Shown: positions 6,469 to 63,000 of the stretch, piece by piece
Layout: the number at the start of each line of letters is the position of its first letter
Position numbering within the stretch: the stretch's first letter is position 1
Source: Synechococcus lacustris
GTDB taxonomy: Bacteria > Cyanobacteriota > Cyanobacteriia > PCC-6307 > Cyanobiaceae
Length of the DNA: 64,000 nucleotides
Direction of reading: 5' to 3'
NCBI GenBank assembly: GCA_903943975.1
Contig: CAJAQB010000019.1
Coordinates: 248,001 to 312,000, forward strand
Made by a program: the position numbers and the translations under genes
Notes under the pieces: model-generated
Databases searched by the model: none
Told to the model about the DNA's origin: nothing
Seen by the model: only the letters and a program-made list of their open reading frames with translations

Positions 6469-8484
6469 ATGTCTTCAGGAATCCCAAGCCAATTTAGCCT
6501 GTATTCGCTTACTCCTAACGCAGCCAATTCACCGGCACAACTACGTACTGGAGCCTTAAATGTCTATCGTCTTTATAATCAAAAAAGCAATACCCATTAC
6601 TACTCATCTCTACTTGCTACTGCTGAGGCAATTCAGACTCAATTAGCCGATTTCAAGCTGGAAGGCATAGCATTTGGAGCGGCAACTGGCGCTGATGCAA
6701 GCTCAGTTTACAGTTTCTTCGACACAACATCAAATTCTACTTTCTATACAGCAGATGTCGCGGAAAGAGATAATATTCTCAAAAATATGCCCAGCTTCAT
6801 CTATCAAGGGGCAGATTTCAAGGCATACAAGAAAAGCAGTAGCTCCGCAGGCATAGACGTTCACCGCTTTTTAAACCCCCATACTGGCGAACATCTGTAT
6901 ATCAGTGATCCCAAAGAATATGAACAAATCTTAGCCAATCAGCCCTACTTTCTCTACGAAGGAGTTGCATTTAAAACCAATGCTGCCAGCAACACTCCAA
7001 GCAATACCTTGGCAAGCACAGCCTACCCAACACTAATTTCTAATTCCCTCCTTTTCTACAATGCCGAACGATCAGGCCAATTGGTCAATAACTCAGGATA
7101 TTTTGGTAATACATTGTACCCAAACAATGTCAGCTGGCGTGGCAATTCAGCCCTAACAGATGGCTCGCTTGCTAATGGCATTTATTTTGGGGGTGACTAC
7201 ACTACATCCAGCCCTCAGGCAGGCCTAACAACCGACCTTGTTGGCGGCTATCACGATGCCGGAGATCACGTTAAATTTGGCCTGCCCTTTGCGGAGAGTT
7301 TAACAACCCTAGCCTGGGGAGGCATTGAATTTGCCGCTGGCTATAGTGCCAGCTCACAAACAACAGCTCTTTATCAAGCAGTTAAATGGGGAACAGATTA
7401 CCTACTTAAATGCGAAAAGCTGGGCACGGATCTAAGTGGTTACTTTGTAGCTCAAGTAGGTGATGGCAACCTCGATCATAGCTACTGGGGCCCATCTGAA
7501 ACACAAACATTCCAACGGCCTGCCTATGCGGTAACGAAGGATAAGCCTGGTTCAGATGTGGCAGGGAGTTCGGCTGCAGCTTTAGCAGCTGCTTCAATAC
7601 TATTCAAAAGCACCGATAGCAGCTATTCCAGCACTCTACTTGCCAGCGCTAAACGACTTTATCAATTTGCTAAAACATATCAAGGTAAATATTCAGATGT
7701 TATTCCTGATGCCCAGGAATTTTACCCTTCCTATAGCTACCAAGACGAGCTAGCCCTTTCAGCAGCATGGCTCTACAAGGCCACCGGAGAATCGAGTTAT
7801 CTAAATGATGCCAAAACATTTTACTCTGGCATCCAATACAGCCTGGGCTGGGGAAGCACAATGAACTGGGATACATCGATATATTCTGCCGCTTTGCTAC
7901 TTTCCCAAGCAGGCCTTGGCTCCGAGCCCCTTGGTGGTAACAGCCCTACACTTGATGAAAATATAAAAGGCTGGCTAGATAGCTGGGTTAATGGAGTAAA
8001 TGGAATAAATATCACCACCGGTGGCTTACGAGTCATTGGTGGCGGCCAATGGGGCAACCTTCGCTATTCAGCCAACACTGCAATGCTCGCAGGTATGTAC
8101 TCAAACTGGACAGCAACTACCGATCCAACTAGATCAGCCAATTACGAAAGCCTTGCGCAATCCCAGATTGATTATATCACCGGACTTAATCCAGATGGCT
8201 TCAGTTACGTAACGGGTTACGGAAATAATTTCCCCCTAGCACCACACCATGAAGATGCCTCTGGCTACACCGATTGGACTGGATTTAATACTGCCGCTGG
8301 GAATGGTAGTCAGACCTCTCCACCAAACACTCATGCCTACGATTTTCTTGGCGCCCTGGTGGGTGGACCCGCAACTAATAGTGATTCCTCATACATAGAT
8401 AATATTGGAAATTCCAATACAAACGAAGTGGCACTTGACTACAATGCAGGCTTCACTGGTGCCCTGGCCTGGGCAGCCAAATAG
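6469..8484 (+). CDS. Glycoside hydrolase family 9 protein (putative endoglucanase) with N-terminal DUF5648-like repeats
   Basis: 671 residues. Residues ~30-175 hold three repeats of about 48 residues beginning VYRLYNQKSNTHYY, VYSFFDTTSNSTFY and VHRFLNPHTGEHLY, typical of DUF5648, a module found on secreted proteins. Residues ~190-671 are a GH9 catalytic domain: LFYNAERSGQL, VSWRGNSALTDG, GGYHDAGDHVKFGLP near 260 with the Asp pair that activates water, VTGYGNNFPLAPHHED near 590, and the catalytic acid in NEVALDYNAGFTGALAWAA near 652. GH9 enzymes cut beta-1,4-glucans by inversion. The Arg that usually follows PHH is Glu here. There is no classical signal peptide, so export may follow a type I or other route. 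Composition is clearly more AT-rich than the neighbours, suggesting acquisition. Confidence 0.9.
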   Translation: MSSGIPSQFSLYSLTPNAANSPAQLRTGALNVYRLYNQKSNTHYYSSLLATAEAIQTQLADFKLEGIAFGAATGADASSVYSFFDTTSNSTFYTADVAERDNILKNMPSFIYQGADFKAYKKSSSSAGIDVHRFLNPHTGEHLYISDPKEYEQILANQPYFLYEGVAFKTNAASNTPSNTLASTAYPTLISNSLLFYNAERSGQLVNNSGYFGNTLYPNNVSWRGNSALTDGSLANGIYFGGDYTTSSPQAGLTTDLVGGYHDAGDHVKFGLPFAESLTTLAWGGIEFAAGYSASSQTTALYQAVKWGTDYLLKCEKLGTDLSGYFVAQVGDGNLDHSYWGPSETQTFQRPAYAVTKDKPGSDVAGSSAAALAAASILFKSTDSSYSSTLLASAKRLYQFAKTYQGKYSDVIPDAQEFYPSYSYQDELALSAAWLYKATGESSYLNDAKTFYSGIQYSLGWGSTMNWDTSIYSAALLLSQAGLGSEPLGGNSPTLDENIKGWLDSWVNGVNGINITTGGLRVIGGGQWGNLRYSANTAMLAGMYSNWTATTDPTRSANYESLAQSQIDYITGLNPDGFSYVTGYGNNFPLAPHHEDASGYTDWTGFNTAAGNGSQTSPPNTHAYDFLGALVGGPATNSDSSYIDNIGNSNTNEVALDYNAGFTGALAWAAK

Positions 8485-8545
8485 AGATTAGAGATTAGAG
8501 ATTAGAGATTAGAGATTAGAGATTAGATATTAGAGATTAGAGATT
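8483..8545. repeat. Nine tandem copies of a 7-bp unit (AGAGATT)
   Basis: Units of AGAGATT run without gaps from 8483 to 8545; the seventh reads AGATATT. The array begins inside the stop codon of the GH9 gene, so changes in copy number would not alter the protein but could alter the 3' untranslated region. Confidence 0.95.
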
Positions 8546-8568
8546 ATCCCAAACTAAGCCAACCCGTT

Positions 8569-8594
8569 GCCCTAAACTCTGCCATTTTTAGGGC
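8569..8594 (+). terminator. Possible terminator hairpin behind the GH9 gene
   Basis: GCCCTAAA at 8569-8576 pairs with TTTAGGGC at 8587-8594 around a 10-base loop. The following sequence is AATTAAAC rather than a T-run, so rho-independent termination is only possible, not shown. Confidence 0.3.
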
Positions 8595-8668
8595 AATTAA
8601 ACTCAGCCCCAATACCCCGATCAAGGCTCCCCGATCAAAACTCCTCGAACACCCCCCCAAACAACAGT

Positions 8669-8738
8669 GCTCGAATAAGACTGCTCGAATAAGACTCCTC
8701 GAATAAGACTGCTCGAATAAGACTGCTCGAATAAAACC
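8669..8738. repeat. Five tandem copies of a 14-bp unit
   Basis: The unit GCTCGAATAAGACT occurs at 8669, 8683, 8697 (first base C), 8711 and 8725 (last bases altered). The surrounding region 8546-8846 contains no supported gene. A less regular related motif (CCCCGATCAA) appears twice just upstream around 8617-8637, so the whole spacer between the GH9 gene and murF is built largely of short repeats. Confidence 0.92.
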
Positions 8739-8846
8739 GCTCCACCCAAACTCTCTTGAATCTGACCCTAGTCATCTGACCCTGGTCATTTTCGTTAGAG
8801 TCCGAGTAGCTCTCCATGCGGCCGCCTCAAGCGAACTGCGCCCAAT

Positions 8847-20223: not shown

Positions 20224-20269
20224 TGGGGCGAAGCAAACCCAGGTAACAACCCTAGTTTCTCACATTTGC

Positions 20270-20548
20270 TCAACTATAACGACGCAATAACGGTGCTGCA
20301 TTCCAAACAGTGCCCAGCAGGGCCAGCAGGGAATCAACAGTGCCAATCCGAGGCAGGCGAATGTACTGATTTGATTCACTATAAATCAGTTGAATCAACG
20401 CAGCCTCCAATTTGGCATCTTGATATTCAAACAACATGCCGATAACTGGATGGCCATCTTGAATGCCCTGCCGCTTAATTATTACTGGTATTTGAATGTT
20501 CTGCTGTACCACTTCCAAGACCCCGTCAAGGAAACCGCTGCCTGTTGA
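20270..20548 (-). pseudogene. Possible C-terminal PilZ-domain remnant of a cellulose-synthase-like gene
   Basis: Reading leftward after an in-frame stop at 20549-20551, 92 codons are open to a TGA at 20270. The sequence (GVLEVVQQNIQIPVIIKRQG, FEYQDAKLEAALIQLIY, WNAAPLLRRYS) resembles the end of the PilZ domain of bacterial cellulose synthases, including the 'L-x-x-L-I-Y' strand and a final helical tail. There is no ATG; only a TTG at 20518 could start it. The upstream catalytic part is not present nearby, so this looks like a decayed fragment. An independent small protein remains possible. The PilZ similarity is my pattern recognition and needs a profile search. Confidence 0.35.
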
Positions 20549-20670
20549 TCAGCACCCTTTGCCAAGCAACCGCCTAGGCCGAATAAACCAAGGGGAAGCA
20601 GCCAGCCCACCAGGCCGATACCAAGGGCCTGCCGAGACAGAAACCTATTTTGGAAGGGGGTTAGGCTCAT
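20482..20670 (-). CDS. Small ORF with lipoprotein-like signal, doubtful
   Basis: 62 codons starting MSLTPFQNRFLSRQALG. A basic N-terminus, a hydrophobic stretch (IGLVGWLLPLGLFGLGGC) and an LGGC lipobox-like end resemble a lipoprotein signal, but only about 28 residues follow. It overlaps the PilZ-like fragment in another frame, so it may equally be a frameshifted upstream piece of the same dead gene. The stretch 20671-20751 after it shows nothing recognisable. Confidence 0.25.
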   Translation of the reverse strand: MSLTPFQNRFLSRQALGIGLVGWLLPLGLFGLGGCLAKGADQQAAVSLTGSWKWYSRTFKYQ

Positions 20671-20751
20671 TAACTTGGATTGGCGATGGCTTCAGCCAAC
20701 AAATAATACATGGTCCTAGCTTCACTATTTAGCCCATAGACAAGCTTTCGA

Positions 20752-22758
20752 CTAAATTGAGAAAACCTGATCCCTACCAGCTCTTTTAGCCATATACATG
20801 GCTTGATCAGCCCGAAAAACCAGTGAATCTGTACTCTCACCCTCAATTAGAATTGTCACCCCGATGCTAAGACTAGCTGTAATTGAAGCCACTGTTAAAT
20901 TTATTGGCTGCCGGCAAGTTAAACGCAATTTTTCAGCGATCTGAATGGCATTATCCAAATCCTGAACACCGTATAGCACCACCAGTAGTTCATCACCCCC
21001 ATAGCGTGCGGCAAAATCATCACTTCGAAGAGAGGACCTAATCCGATCACAGAGATGACTAATAACCTTGTCACCCACAAGATGGCCGTAGGAATCATTG
21101 ATAAACTTAAACTTATCTATATCACAAAAAAGAACAGCAGTGGCTGTACCGGTGCGTGGTATTTTAGCATGTAGCATATCAATGCGCTCCAGCGCAGTCT
21201 TACGATTTAGGAATCCTGTGAGTTGGTCGGTTTGTGCCTGCCTACTCAGTTCCTCTTCAGCTGCAACCTGATCATCAATTATATTAAATGCTGCAATGTG
21301 ACCTTCAATCTCTCCATTTTCATTGATGAACGGTCGGGATTGAATTTGAACCCAATGAAATTTTCCAGCCATTCCTAACATCCGGATCCTACTGCTAATA
21401 GACTTGCCCGTAGATAATACTTTTCGGGCATCAAGAGCAGCCTCTAAATCTCCAGACTGAATAAATTTAGAAGTTGCATGGCCTACCCATTCGTCATGAT
21501 GCCAGCCAAATATACGAAATAGAGATGGTGAAACCCAACTAAATCTATATTCATCATCAATGCGGGCAACCACATTTGTAGAATTCTCCGCCAGCAATCG
21601 ATAATTTAATTCAGAAGCAGCCAGCCTTGAGATAGTTAAGTATCGCTCAGTAACGTCGCGCCATGTACAACTAAGTGATTCACCTACCTTAACAGCACGT
21701 ATGTCTAGATGCAGGCTCTGACCATGGGCTTCGTGATGATGTACATAATCATCAAGGGCCAGCGGATTGCCTGTTTCAATAACATTTACATACATTTTGA
21801 ATAGACCCGAAGCAGCATGATCAGGAAGTAAATCCAATAATCTAGCCCCAATCAGCTGTTCGCGGCTAATTTTATTGTGCACACAGGCAGCCTGATTCGC
21901 TTCAACGTAAATGAAATCTATGATTTTACCAGCTTGATCAAGAACTGGATCTGCAATTACATGGGGATCCAGCATGGAATTTAAAGTAATAGATGATCTT
22001 GCTTTTTCCGCCTCAACTCTGTTTGTTGCTTCAATCTCCAAGTGAATATCCTTCAAGCCTCCAACAAATCTGAGTCTAACACCATTTTTATAATAACTAG
22101 GCTTTAATTTGGCCGCCATACGGCAGGATTTGCCATTGCTACACATTACCCGCAGAGTTTCAATTATATTTGTCGCCAATTTATTGCCTTCAAAATACAA
22201 TGCCAAGCAAGGCCTATCGTCAGGATGAATAAAATTCAGGAATGACCTGCCAGTGCATTCAGCAACATCCCAGCCCAAGATGTCCTTAACAGAGATAGAA
22301 ATCCATAGGATAACAGCCTGGTCATCAATCTCAATAACAATATCTGAGCTATGTAGTGCTAGAATGCGATATCGTTCCTCTGAATAGGCTAGCTTCTCTA
22401 GAGTATCAAGCCGACTTGATGCCAGGAGCACAGCTACAAAGGAAATGACCAATAGTGCAATCAATACTCCAAGATGGTCAATAGAAGCAAGCCTGGCAGA
22501 ATTAAATGCTAAAATAATGGCCAATACTATAAAGTAAGCGCCGAGAATAATGTACTTTTGCCTAGCAAACAAAAGTGAAGCCAATAATACAGGAAATGTC
22601 AAAAACAATAACAGCACAATTCTTTGATCTCCGGCCAGCCTAACCACCCAAGCACTAGAGATCAGTATGGCAATTGGCGTTAATATCTGTAGCCAATATC
22701 TATAGTTTGCGCCTGCATATTTGGCTACATCTATACTCCTCAGGTATGCAGGCATCAT
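20752..22758 (-). CDS. Membrane sensor diguanylate cyclase (three PAS-like domains plus GGDEF)
   Basis: 668 residues. Four transmembrane segments lie at about residues 22-115. Three PAS-like domains follow (about 125-235, 250-370 with RDVTERY, 375-500). A GGDEF domain starts at QAQTDQLTGFLNRKTALERI. The signature reads RYGGDELLVVLYG near residue 587: the last Phe is Leu, a tolerated change. RSDD five residues before it is an intact inhibitory RxxD site. The enzyme should make c-di-GMP from GTP in response to a membrane or small-molecule cue. The start ATG at 22758 has GAGGGA about 6 bases upstream. A 67-base AGTG array lies 52 bases before the start. Composition is AT-richer than the core genes. 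Confidence 0.92.
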   Translation of the reverse strand: MMPAYLRSIDVAKYAGANYRYWLQILTPIAILISSAWVVRLAGDQRIVLLLFLTFPVLLASLLFARQKYIILGAYFIVLAIILAFNSARLASIDHLGVLIALLVISFVAVLLASSRLDTLEKLAYSEERYRILALHSSDIVIEIDDQAVILWISISVKDILGWDVAECTGRSFLNFIHPDDRPCLALYFEGNKLATNIIETLRVMCSNGKSCRMAAKLKPSYYKNGVRLRFVGGLKDIHLEIEATNRVEAEKARSSITLNSMLDPHVIADPVLDQAGKIIDFIYVEANQAACVHNKISREQLIGARLLDLLPDHAASGLFKMYVNVIETGNPLALDDYVHHHEAHGQSLHLDIRAVKVGESLSCTWRDVTERYLTISRLAASELNYRLLAENSTNVVARIDDEYRFSWVSPSLFRIFGWHHDEWVGHATSKFIQSGDLEAALDARKVLSTGKSISSRIRMLGMAGKFHWVQIQSRPFINENGEIEGHIAAFNIIDDQVAAEEELSRQAQTDQLTGFLNRKTALERIDMLHAKIPRTGTATAVLFCDIDKFKFINDSYGHLVGDKVISHLCDRIRSSLRSDDFAARYGGDELLVVLYGVQDLDNAIQIAEKLRLTCRQPINLTVASITASLSIGVTILIEGESTDSLVFRADQAMYMAKRAGRDQVFSI

Positions 22759-22764
22759 GATTGT

Positions 22765-22770
22765 TCCCTC
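22765..22770 (-). promoter_or_regulatory. Ribosome binding site of the diguanylate cyclase gene
   Basis: GAGGGA on the minus strand, 6 bases before the ATG at 22758, fixes the start and places the AGTG array in the untranslated or promoter region. Confidence 0.6.
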
Positions 22771-22810
22771 ATGTCACAACTAGTGGTAGACCAACCAGCT
22801 GGTGCATACA

Positions 22811-22877
22811 AGTGAGTGAGTGAGTGAGTGAGTGAGTGAGTGAGTGAGTGAGTGAGTGAGTGAGTGAGTGAGTGAGT
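22811..22877. repeat. Tetranucleotide microsatellite, 16.75 perfect copies of AGTG
   Basis: An uninterrupted period-4 array of 67 bases with no mismatch. It lies in the 669-base spacer between the two divergent c-di-GMP genes, nearer to the diguanylate cyclase. Perfect arrays of this length are prone to slippage. In the frame of the cyclase an in-frame stop (22774-22776) separates the array from the coding region, so slippage would change spacing, not the protein. Confidence 0.97.
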
Positions 22878-23427
22878 TTAATTATAAATTTAATTTTAAA
22901 GACTAGTCTTCTTCTACTGTAGCAATACGCAATCGGCGACTTTTCCAGGAGTAAACTGAATTTAACTGGCAACGAAACAGGGATACGGGCCTGAGGGCAG
23001 TCAAGTCCCATACTTTCAGGGCTGGCTAGAAAAACTGCACTCATTGTTCCTGAATGCGCTTTGCTTCAATAACACAATACGCAAAGGGCATCACGTCCGC
23101 ACCTGTTAAACCAGATAAAATTGACTTTATGCAATATTAGCATAAATAAAGCGCCTTGAGCCCAGAAAAGGGCTAGCAAATCCAGGAACGCAAATATGTA
23201 AATCCGCATAAGTGCATTGCTCGAATCCGCTGGCTGCGCTGGCCTCACTTCCTTTTGAGTGCATTTATGCTTGCAACTCTTGCAAAAATAGCAGTTTCAG
23301 CATATATAGACAAAGCCAATGCATAAACTATCAAAACAACCTTGGCGGCAATACAGCAACACGCTTCGCTTCCAACTATATTCTGATATATACAGACTAT
23401 TCAGCCCATGGCAAGAGCTGGCTTGCC
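22878..23427. other. Intergenic remainder between the divergent c-di-GMP genes
   Basis: About 550 AT-rich bases with no supported gene. Short ORFs on the minus strand here are only the repeat translated plus chance sequence. It should hold the promoter of the GGDEF-EAL gene, but no confident boxes are visible. Confidence 0.5.
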
Positions 23428-25530
23428 ATGCTAAATTTCATAGATTCCTTCTGCGGCACTTTGCTGCGCGCCCCTCTCAGGAGCATGACTTCAGCAAATC
23501 AGCCCTTTTTGCTGCTGCCCAATGATGGCTTTTTTCTGGTTAATCGTGCCGAAATTGCCTTTTATTTGAATCGAGAAGCCAGTCTATGGCTGGCAGCAGA
23601 ACCAGCCCGTAGCGCTGCCATTGAGCTAAATGGCAACCCCTTAAGTGACACCTGGCCTCAATTATCTGCCTTCATTGCCAAACAGCCCCCCTGGCAGGAA
23701 CTGCAGGAACCGATTGATGGTTTAGTAGAACTTAGCTCCGAACAAATAGCTGTGCGCTTATTCCGCACAGATGATGGTTATGGAATAGGTATTATTGCCG
23801 ATGAGACTCTCTCAGAGAACAAAAAATCAAGCACCACCGAAAAGCTCTATAAATCTATCATTGATATTGCCGAGGATGTGGTAATTGTTACCACAGCTGA
23901 GCCCTTTGACCGGCCTGGACCAATAATTATCTATGCTAATCAGGCAGTATTAAAAGATACAGGTTACAGCATAAACGAAGTTCTGGGCCGTAGTCCGCGG
24001 ATCTTTCAAGGGCCAGACACCTCATTAGAGACGAGGGCTAAATTTAGAGATGCATTGAATAATTGGTCCTCAATTAGTATGGAGATAGAGAACTACAGCA
24101 AGACAAATATACCATTTTGGGTAAATATTGCGATGGCACCCATTACGGATGACACTGGTTGGTACACCCATTGGGTGGCAGTACAGCACAATGTGACCGC
24201 CCATCATGAGATTGCCAAAGCTTTAAATATTCAAGCCCATCTTGATCCAGTAACAGATTTACCTAATCGCCTGAGCCTCAAGAACAGTCTAAGCTATGTG
24301 CTTACAAAATATTGTAAAACCTCCGAAAATGTTGCAATCCTTATAGCTGATATTGACAGATTTAAAGATATTAATGAAAACTTGAGCCACAGAGTTGGTG
24401 ATTTACTTCTGGTTGAACTTGCCGCAAGGCTCAGGGCTGCCATGCGGCCCAGTGACATGCTTGTGAGAATGGGTGGAGATGAGTTTGCAATATTAATCGA
24501 GAATATCTCCGATTCAGATGAGGCCTTAGCCATTGGAGAAAGGCTTATGACTTGCCTAGATGCCCCCTGGAAGCACAATAGTCGAGATCATCATATTTCA
24601 ATGAGTATTGGCATTGCAATCGCCAATGGGCATGAACACGATCTATCGGCCGATGAGATTATCAGGCGTTCTGAAATAGCCCTGTATCATGCTAAGGCTA
24701 ACGGCAAAAGCAGGATAGAGCTATTTAGACCTGAACTAGATAAGAACCTCCGCAACTCTATGCTTATAAATCAGGATATTTGCAAAGCCATTGACGAAGG
24801 CACTTTTCTGCTTCATTATCAACCTATCATCAACTTGGCAGATCTTGCGATAGTAGGCGCCGAAGTACTTGTGCGCATGAAAAAGGCTGATGGCACACTC
24901 AGCCCCCCAGCAGATTTCATTCCCGAAGCAGAGGTGAGTGGCCTTGTGATTCCAATGGGAAAATGGATTTTACATAATGCCATCCAGCAGCAGCAGCAAT
25001 GGCAACGGCTTGGCTATAAATTTAATCTCTCTATAAATGTAAGCCCGGTTCAACTCCGTGATGGCAATTTTGCAGATTATTTTCTTAGTGTTTTGGCTGA
25101 GTCAGATGTCTCGCCGGGCAGTATCACGGTGGAAATCACAGAGCAGGTTCTTATCGTTGATTACGATGCAAAGATGGCTGAGCTTATTAAATTGCACGAG
25201 GCGGGGGTTGGCATTTCTTTGGATGATTTTGGTACCGGATATTCTAGCCTTGGTTGGCTTACAAGGTTTCCCGTAAACACGGTGAAGCTAGACAGGTCAT
25301 ACACCAAGGATGTGGGTGAAGACAGAGCCAAAACTGCCATCATAAGGGCAATAATTGATATGTCGCACGAGCTTGGTTTTAATGTTGTTGCTGAAGGTAT
25401 CGAGACTCAAGAACAAAGGCAGAGAATAACTGAACTGGGATGCGACCATGGCCAGGGTTATTTATTTGGCAAGCCAGCCAGTGCAAATTCATTTCTTGAG
25501 CTGGTCCAAGCGTCTAATCTAATCAAATAA
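23428..25530 (+). CDS. PAS-GGDEF-EAL protein (c-di-GMP synthesis/degradation)
   Basis: About 700 residues from the ATG at 23428; the frame is open from 23212, and another ATG at 23485 is an equally possible start. Residues ~1-145 are unassigned. A PAS domain follows (~150-265) containing GRSPRIFQGPDTS, which resembles LOV domains but has Pro in place of the flavin-reactive Cys. The GGDEF domain has VRMGGDEFAIL near 348 with an RPSD inhibitory site before it. The EAL domain (~455-690) reads EVLVR instead of EALVR but keeps the catalytic set: NVSPVQLRDGNF, VEITEQVLI, LDDFGTGYSS, VKLDRSYTKD and AEGIETQEQ. Both activities look possible. It is divergent from the diguanylate cyclase. Confidence 0.9.
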   Translation: MLNFIDSFCGTLLRAPLRSMTSANQPFLLLPNDGFFLVNRAEIAFYLNREASLWLAAEPARSAAIELNGNPLSDTWPQLSAFIAKQPPWQELQEPIDGLVELSSEQIAVRLFRTDDGYGIGIIADETLSENKKSSTTEKLYKSIIDIAEDVVIVTTAEPFDRPGPIIIYANQAVLKDTGYSINEVLGRSPRIFQGPDTSLETRAKFRDALNNWSSISMEIENYSKTNIPFWVNIAMAPITDDTGWYTHWVAVQHNVTAHHEIAKALNIQAHLDPVTDLPNRLSLKNSLSYVLTKYCKTSENVAILIADIDRFKDINENLSHRVGDLLLVELAARLRAAMRPSDMLVRMGGDEFAILIENISDSDEALAIGERLMTCLDAPWKHNSRDHHISMSIGIAIANGHEHDLSADEIIRRSEIALYHAKANGKSRIELFRPELDKNLRNSMLINQDICKAIDEGTFLLHYQPIINLADLAIVGAEVLVRMKKADGTLSPPADFIPEAEVSGLVIPMGKWILHNAIQQQQQWQRLGYKFNLSINVSPVQLRDGNFADYFLSVLAESDVSPGSITVEITEQVLIVDYDAKMAELIKLHEAGVGISLDDFGTGYSSLGWLTRFPVNTVKLDRSYTKDVGEDRAKTAIIRAIIDMSHELGFNVVAEGIETQEQRQRITELGCDHGQGYLFGKPASANSFLELVQASNLIK

Positions 25531-25555
25531 AAAACCCCCGCAATTTGCGGGGGTT
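25525..25555 (-). terminator. Rho-independent terminator of psbA
   Basis: An 11-bp perfect stem (AACCCCCGCAA with TTGCGGGGGTT, 25533-25555) with a one-base loop as drawn, or a few bases if the A-T pairs open. On the minus strand it is followed by a T-rich tract (TTTTATTTG). It lies 46 bases after the psbA stop and could also block read-through from the GGDEF-EAL gene. Confidence 0.92.
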
Positions 25556-25601
25556 AAAGAAGGTTGAGAATTGGTTTAAAAACCAAACTCAGCAATCAAG
25601 C

Positions 25602-60093: not shown

Positions 60094-63000
60094 ATGCCCG
60101 TTGACTCAAGCACCTATGCGGAGGGGATGGTAGTAACAGTCAATGGGCCCTCCATTCCTGGCCGCAGCAAGGGGGAATATATAAATGCCGCTGCCTTTGC
60201 CGCCCTTAAGAGCGATGGCACCGTCGTTGCCTGGGGTGATGGCCGCTATGGCGGCACGGCACCGGCGGGGCTGAGCGGCGTTAGCCAGATCTTCTCCACT
60301 AACACTGCCTTTGCGGCGCTGAAGAGCGATGGCAGTGTCGTCGCCTGGGGTCTCAGCAGCTCTGGCGGCACTGCCCCAGAAGGGCTGAGCGGTGTCACCC
60401 AGATCTTCTCAACTAATTCTGCCTTTGCGGCATTGAAGAGCGATGGCAGTGTCGTCGCCTGGGGTGACGAGATGGCTGGCGGCAATGCCACCCCATTTGC
60501 GCTGAGCGGTGTCACCCAGATCATCTCAACTGAAAAGGCCTTTGCGGCATTAAAGAGCGATGGCAGCGTCGTCGCCTGGGGTGACTGGAGCTATGGCGCC
60601 TTGTCCCCATACTTCCTTAGCAATGTCACCCAGATCTTCTCCACTGAAAAGGCCTTTGCGGCATTGAAGAGCGATGGCAGCGTCGTCGCCTGGGGTGACT
60701 GGAACAATGGCGGCAATGCCCCAGAGCTGAGCAGCGTCTCCCAGATCTTCTCCACTAGAACAGCATTTGCCGCCTTAAAGACTGATGGCAGCGTCGTCGC
60801 CTGGGGTGGCTACGGCTCTGGCCTTGCTCTCCCCCTAGGTGGCGGCATAAATGGTGGCAGGGCCCCAGCGGGGCTGAGCGGCGTCTCCCAGATATTCTCC
60901 ACTGACTCTGCATTCGCCGCCCTGAAGAGCGATGGCAGCGTTGTTGCCTGGGGTCTCAGCAGCTCTGGCGGCACGGCAACGGCGGGGCTGAGCGGCGTCA
61001 CCAAGATCTTCTCCAATGCCAATGCCTTTGCGGCGCTGAAGAGCGATGGCAGCGTCGTCGCCTGGGGTGACAGCAACTATGGCGGCACGGCACCAACGGG
61101 GCTGAGCGGCGTTGCCCAAATCCTCTCCAATAACGGTGCCTTTGCGGCGCTAAAGAGCGATGGCAGCGTCGTCGCCTGGGGTGCCAGCAGCTCTGGCGGC
61201 ACGGCACCGTCAGGGTTGAGCGGCGTCGCCAAGATCTTCTCCAATGCCAATGCCTTTGCGGCGCTGAAGAGCGATGGCAGCGTCGTCGGCTGGGGTGACA
61301 GCAGCAATGGCGGCACGGCACCAGTGGGGCTGAGCGGTGTGGTGGCGTTTGCCAATCCCTATACCGATGATCGGCTCACAACCATTCAGCCGCAAAATTC
61401 ACCACCCTCAACACTCAAGGGCACGAATACGGCTGATAATCTGATCGGCACAGCGCCAAATCAATTTATTGATGCCCTTGCAGGCAACGACACCATTTCC
61501 ACTGGCTTTGCCAACAGCACGCTATATGGGAATAGTGGCAATGACAGCTTTTATTTTGCCACGGCTTTAACCAGTGTTTTGATAGCAAGCAACCAAGATA
61601 ATGATACAATTCAACTACGTGGTGCATCTACCAAAACGAGTATTTGGGGTGGTAGCGGCAACGACAGCATAAAACTAGAAAACACAGCAACAGCCGGTTA
61701 CATCAGTGGTGATGAAGGTGATGACACAATTGATATCAGCGGAGCACTACTGAACACCAGCATAATTGGCGGCGACGGTGAAGACCGTCTATACATTACT
61801 GGCACATTAAGTGCTGCATCTATATCAGGGGGAAATGGCAACGACAGCTTGGTCTTCGCCGGAATCGCAAACAACAGCACAATCACCGCTGGTAATGGGG
61901 CAGACAGTATTGCCCTGCTGGCAGGCGTCAGCGCCAGCAGTATCGACGGCGGAGAGGGTGATGATTCAATCACCCTGGCGATTTCAGCTAATTCCTCCAC
62001 AGTGATTGGCGGCAGTGGCAACGACTTAATCGCTCTGTCCGCTGACACGACAAGCATTTCAATCAATAGTGGCAGTGGCAATGACTCAATTGTCATTACT
62101 GGTGCACTTAATAGTGGTTTTATTCTTACCAGATGGGGCGATGACTGGATATCAATATCCAGTTCAGTGGTAAATGCAAGAATTTATGGCGGCAGCGGTA
62201 ACGATACGATCACGGTGAATAACACAGTTAGTGGTGGTATATTTGGCGGCCAAGAAGGCGCAGACTCATTGGTGGTGAGGGGCGGGATCATAAACGCCCA
62301 GGTGGAGCTGGCGGCATCGCCAACAGACACCACCACCCTGGCAGACACCCTGGTGGTGACCGGTGAAATACAAGGCAGCACAATCCTTGCAGGGTCCGGC
62401 TCCGATAGCCTGCTGCTAAGTAGCAGCTTTGGCGGCTATGGGGAGCTTGGCGACGGCAATGATTATGTGAGCGCTGCTGGTGCGCTAAGCCTTGCCTCAC
62501 TGCTGGGAGGAACCGGCAATGATACTATTAATTTTAATGGTGGCACTTCCTCAAGTGTGGTCGGTGGCTATGGAGCAGACCAACTTATCTTTAGCGGCAC
62601 GAATGCAAACCTGGTTGATACAACAGTTTATGGTGGGCAAGTTAGTACTTGGTACAGCACAATTAGCGGCATTGATGGCAATGATTCCATCTATGTGGCC
62701 GGCTCACTTAGTAATACCTGGCTATATGCCAACCAAGGGGAAGACACGATATCCGTAGTTGGCAGCGCATATAGCTCACGCATATATGGCGGAAGTGGCA
62801 ATGATCTAATAAGTGTAGGCCCAATGATATCAAGAGGCGCCATCCTGGGTGGCACTGGCAACGATACCATTTATGTAAGCAGCCTAGAGCAAGGGGTTTA
62901 CCTGTTTGGCGACGAAGCCAACAATAGCGGCAGTAATGATAATGATTTCATTCAGATTGGTTCGATTAGCACCGCCTACATATCTGGAGAACAGGGTAAT

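Follow-up and report, generated by a model that had tools for sequence, protein, structure and literature searches.

A perfect 67-base AGTG array stands immediately upstream of a predicted diguanylate cyclase (DGC) gene in a picocyanobacterium, and long homopolymer tracts stand at the 5' ends of further GGDEF genes in the same genome. We tentatively read the array as a graded contingency-type simple sequence repeat (SSR) in a transcribed leader of the DGC gene, and as one member of a set placed on c-di-GMP genes. The window, that is, the whole 64,000-nucleotide stretch analysed (G000:C19:248001-312000), belongs to a draft Cyanobiaceae genome of 2.47 Mb in 23 contigs. Coordinates without a contig or locus label are window positions.

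Results

The array

Tandem Repeats Finder placed AGTG x16.75 (reported as x16.8) at 22811-22877 with 100% matches over 67 bases, which bears out the preliminary description of a perfect period-4 array. The unit reads AGTG on the plus strand and (CACT)n on the sense strand of the DGC gene. Positions 22759-22810 separate the array from the DGC ATG at 22758, and the distance of 52 bases given earlier is therefore exact. The array has two marks of an SSR contingency locus: it is a long, perfect, short-unit tract of a length far beyond chance, and it is located close to a gene start. No tetranucleotide run of at least 17 bases appeared in two simulated Markov-1 sequences of 475 kb.

In a genome-wide pattern search, (AGTG) of at least five units occurred at this single place in the 2.47 Mb. 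Such arrays had been called unexpected in picocyanobacteria, and they are indeed rare, since (AGTG) of at least six units was present in 5/400 Cyanobiaceae genomes. The arrays elsewhere in the family have 7.25 to 13.75 copies, and the present one is the longest among about 400 genomes. No (AGTG) array was found at a DGC gene elsewhere in the 400 genomes by pattern search, and DNA comparison with 60 relatives gave no orthologous array of another length. The lack of an ortholog with the array in any relative counts against the contingency reading.

Two genomes of another genus (G191 and G299) carry (CACT)n of 13.75 and 9.0 units immediately upstream of the start ATG in GG-leader peptide genes, and neighbouring sister copies share the conserved leader without the array. 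Within Cyanobiaceae, 5' leaders have thus seen more than one expansion of the CACT unit on the strand that matches the DGC array. Arrays of (CACT)n before GG-leader (RiPP-like) peptide genes are seen at L174 9841-9895 and L175 9728-9763. The arrays of G084 and G134 adjoin unrelated genes and were dropped as informative parallels.

Copy numbers of repeats are often miscounted in assemblies, and in a draft of 23 contigs the array could be an artefact, absent from the real genome or of another length there. However, a usual short read is longer than 67 bp, the sequence on either side is unique, and the array (at about 270.8 kb) is far from both ends of its 427-kb contig. An artefact is hardly to be expected.

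The DGC gene and its control region

The DGC gene (20752-22758, minus strand) encodes a PAS-PAS-GGDEF protein of 668 aa, whose GGDEF domain matches PF00990 at 1.6e-40. The motif is GGDEL, the F to L variant of the GG(D/E)E(F) signature, accompanied by the RxxD I-site RSDD, and the protein is predicted to be a cyclase.

On the DGC strand of 22759-23000, each TANNNT hexamer is either upstream of the array or overlaps its edge. A perfect TATAAT -10 hexamer (22881-22886, minus strand) adjoins the 5' side of the array, and a transcription start 6-8 nt past it would fall in the first array units. Judged from hexamers only, therefore, transcripts of the DGC gene probably carry the array as a (CACU)n leader. 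A sigma-70 scan gave no two-box promoter at the array and no excess over shuffled sequences.

A perfect 12-bp palindrome, AAGACTAGTCTT (22899-22910), is located upstream of TATAAT, 21 bp 5' of the array, and may be an operator. Following the NadA precedent (PMC2791445), the array could act as a spacer that determines how far a regulator site upstream of it, such as this palindrome, is from a DGC core promoter on its downstream side. However, the 52 bp between the array and the ATG contain no TANNNT on the DGC strand, and hence no recognisable core promoter on the basis of hexamers. Because of this hexamer map an operator-spacing switch is disfavoured, and we consider it very unlikely.

The 52-nt leader between the array and the DGC start (22759-22810, minus strand) contains an SD-like GAGGG (22770-22766), a TGA in the DGC frame and a 12-codon ORF, MHQLVGLPLVVT (22769-22807, minus strand), which is unaffected by array length. 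Because of the in-frame TGA, no array length can fuse to or frameshift the DGC, and slippage does not shift the downstream frame as it does in a translational ON/OFF switch. Of the phase-variation switch proposed in the preliminary description, a slip-prone array directly 5' of a PAS-PAS-GGDEF gene remains, but ON/OFF switching is rejected, and any effect of array length would be graded. Occlusion of the ribosome-binding site was also rejected, since folding predicted the same accessibility of the SD and start from 4 to 30 units, with the leader unpaired. Any effect would then come from leader length, which does change with unit number, or from the transcript.

If transcripts begin further upstream, unit number would also change the end of a 91-codon ORF that runs through the array (22769-23044, minus strand). 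Its computed stops cycle exactly with unit number modulo 3, falling 10 nt before the DGC ATG, 21 nt before it, or on a TGA overlapping it, and this could alter re-initiation at the DGC. However, the ORF has no family match, and a promoter upstream of 23044 would be needed, whereas the AT-rich promoter-like stretch lies inside the ORF. The ORF is probably not a real gene, and such translational coupling is quite improbable.

The divergent gene encodes a PAS-GGDEF-EAL protein (23485-25530, plus strand) with GGDEF, EVL and DDFGTGYS motifs. Its frame is open from 23212, and its likely start is the ATG at 23485, with AGGAG just 5' of it. This ATG is about 607 bp from the array, and many -10-like TANNNT sites are nearer to it than the array. 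The earlier placement of the array in a promoter region shared with this gene is therefore doubtful, and joint control is unlikely.

A low-GC islet with both c-di-GMP genes

Both genes are located in an islet (20224-25601) of 43.8% GC, against 60.9% for the window, between a FAD gene and psbA. One congener (G003) has the gene order DUF697-psbA-FAD gene-pyrophosphatase without the pair, although an N where psbA and the FAD gene meet makes this empty-site comparison less secure; in another (G002), the FAD gene comes next after DUF697. Neither protein had a match in three congeners. The pair was either gained here or lost in all sampled congeners, and the low GC of the islet favours gain. When the DGC was searched against contigs of other genomes, only remote matches of at most about 42% identity were obtained, and no donor was identified. 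Its closest paralog in its own genome (C13:300464) shows 46% identity.

The window contains other repeats. Period-7 (TAGAGAT x9.3) and period-14 tandem repeats are present at 8482-8789, at the end of and just past a cellulase-like ORF (6469-8484), and 114-bp tandem repeats of nearly ten copies form two blocks at 60191-61337, probably coding and RCC1-like by eye.

Poly-C/G tracts at other GGDEF genes

A genome-wide search found nine poly-C/G tracts of at least 12 bases, and a Pfam search found nine GGDEF matches. Two or three other GGDEF genes, the closest DGC paralog among them, carry four of the nine tracts at their 5' ends, and a fifth tract is at a CHASE-PAS sensor kinase. The link to c-di-GMP made in the preliminary description is strengthened by these tracts.

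On contig C3, a C18A9 tract (C3:63506) precedes the ATG of a PAS-GGDEF gene by about 20 nt; this gene heads a KaiC-KaiB-PAS row and is itself frameshifted inside GGDEF. A C14 tract (C3:60366) lies between the KaiB and PAS frames. The row is read on the minus strand of L163 353-3612 (G000:C3) as the frameshifted PAS-GGDEF gene, a KaiC-like gene, a KaiB-domain gene and a PAS gene. The opening codons of a CHASE-PAS-GGDEF-EAL gene (L165 1439-4252, G000:C10) contain a G18 tract (C10:1508). Two C14 tracts (C13:300118 and C13:300380; L162 8118-8131 and 8380-8393) are at the 5' end of the closest DGC paralog, where a unit of C14 and about 35 bp is doubled; this unit occurs nowhere else in the genome. 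A tract of 13 C (C13:284388) is in the first codons of the CHASE/PAS-type sensor kinase, named by sequence reading. The other tracts are at C3:52087, which reads as a phycobilisome intergenic region, and at C21:102592 and C13:147527. Four other GGDEF genes have no 5' tract. Perfect hexamer arrays were seen inside and upstream of the GGDEF gene C13:127625 (L164 10740-10774 and 12057-12095).

With the twin C14 tract merged to leave eight independent tracts, the chance of at least 3/8 at GGDEF 5' ends is P ~2.5e-7 when reckoned from sequence span and 2.9e-6 from the share of genes; GGDEF stretches had been sampled before the association came to notice, while the tract list itself is genome-wide. 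Poly-C of at least 14 is widespread in the family (58/150 genomes).

At their assembled tract lengths, the G18 gene, the C14 paralog and the kinase have only GTG or TTG starts 5' of the tract in the catalytic frame, and one base more or two fewer would bring an ATG start into register. A tract of 19 bases would give the CHASE protein the N-terminus MPFFRDLCQRLQAAAPGLVYIYLPCLLFVGGGGGGLW, which could plausibly form a first membrane helix. These frames may be OFF phases, or the homopolymers may have been under-counted in the assembly, or the GTG/TTG starts may be true. Homopolymer lengths are unreliable in a draft assembly, which counts against the contingency reading.

Discussion

The following model is plausible, although tentative. 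A contingency-type SSR would act on the DGC alone, from the transcribed 5' leader. Through strand slippage the leader would grow or shrink 4 nt at a time, and DGC expression would be adjusted by degrees, as by a rheostat and not by an on/off switch. Long mono- or tetranucleotide tracts at the 5' ends of three other GGDEF genes and of one sensor kinase would belong to the same set, and some of these genes would change frame through slippage. Collectively, the tracts would give a clonal population whose cells differ in c-di-GMP output. The set suggests random variation of the c-di-GMP signal among cells.

The main rival, which we rank below the contingency reading but regard as a serious possibility, is neutral expansion. 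On this view the islet would be a recent low-GC acquisition in whose non-coding DNA the array lengthened through slippage, without an effect on expression, and the other GGDEF tracts would reflect the same relaxed acquired DNA. This idea is consistent with the low GC of the islet and its absence from congeners. The tract-bearing GGDEF genes have a 5' GC of 44-56%, against 60-65% in three of the four tract-free ones, so tracts may simply gather in low-GC acquired DNA. Two further tracts in plain intergenic DNA, and the unrelated neighbours of the G084 and G134 arrays, are also as neutral expansion would predict. However, chance would hardly place four of nine tracts at the 5' ends of nine GGDEF genes. 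Moreover, about 20 poly-C tracts of at least 14 bases were listed in ten GGDEF-rich relatives, and none was within 5 kb of a GGDEF-EAL gene among the matches listed; the contrast with this genome gives Fisher P 0.002, in an after-the-fact comparison with an incomplete GGDEF list.

The contingency reading can be extended to a slippage-driven c-di-GMP contingency network over several genes in a free-living picocyanobacterium. The tetranucleotide rheostat would then work beside poly-C/G tracts in the opening codons or leaders of three further GGDEF genes and the sensor kinase, and at one or more of these, the G18 CHASE-PAS-GGDEF-EAL gene, a one-base slip would give an ATG-started, membrane-anchored frame. 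We consider this wider network unlikely. If it is true, bet-hedging between free and attached life would be a heritable, countable DNA state in a photosynthetic picoplankter. The tract set could also help explain why a small genome retains several related GGDEF genes that are missing in congeners.

SSR phase variation has been described mainly in host-adapted pathogens, where it mostly affects surface structures. In the open-access literature we found no slippage-controlled set of diguanylate cyclases and no demonstration of SSR phase variation in picocyanobacteria. For Pseudomonas aeruginosa, the authors of a study of intergenic homopolymer indels speculate that phase variation at homopolymers may work in concert with redundant c-di-GMP enzymes; the parts of that report available to us describe no long tracts grouped at the 5' ends of GGDEF genes, unlike here (PMC8115180). 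In Clostridioides difficile, phase variation is likewise placed on c-di-GMP enzymes, and that of pdcB and pdcC shifts cellular c-di-GMP and many phenotypes (PMC9286219). In that case, however, the switch is a site-specific promoter inversion and the enzymes are phosphodiesterases, whereas here candidate slippage would act on a cyclase. The nadA gene of Neisseria meningitidis also has a tetranucleotide repeat in its 5' control region, but there the repeat precedes the core promoter and alters the spacing of the operator, whereas the DGC gene shows no visible core promoter on the downstream side of its array (PMC2791445).

In Moraxella catarrhalis, (AGAT)n of 12-20 units upstream of the uspA2 ORF gives graded mRNA, differing up to 3.4-fold by unit number (PMC7302503). 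There the gene encodes a pathogen adhesin, the array is 132 bp upstream and variation is proven, whereas our case is a candidate locus at the gene for a c-di-GMP enzyme of a cyanobacterium. Nevertheless, both are perfect tetranucleotide arrays of similar length, upstream of an ORF and outside any frame, and uspA2 is the nearest working analogue of the DGC array.
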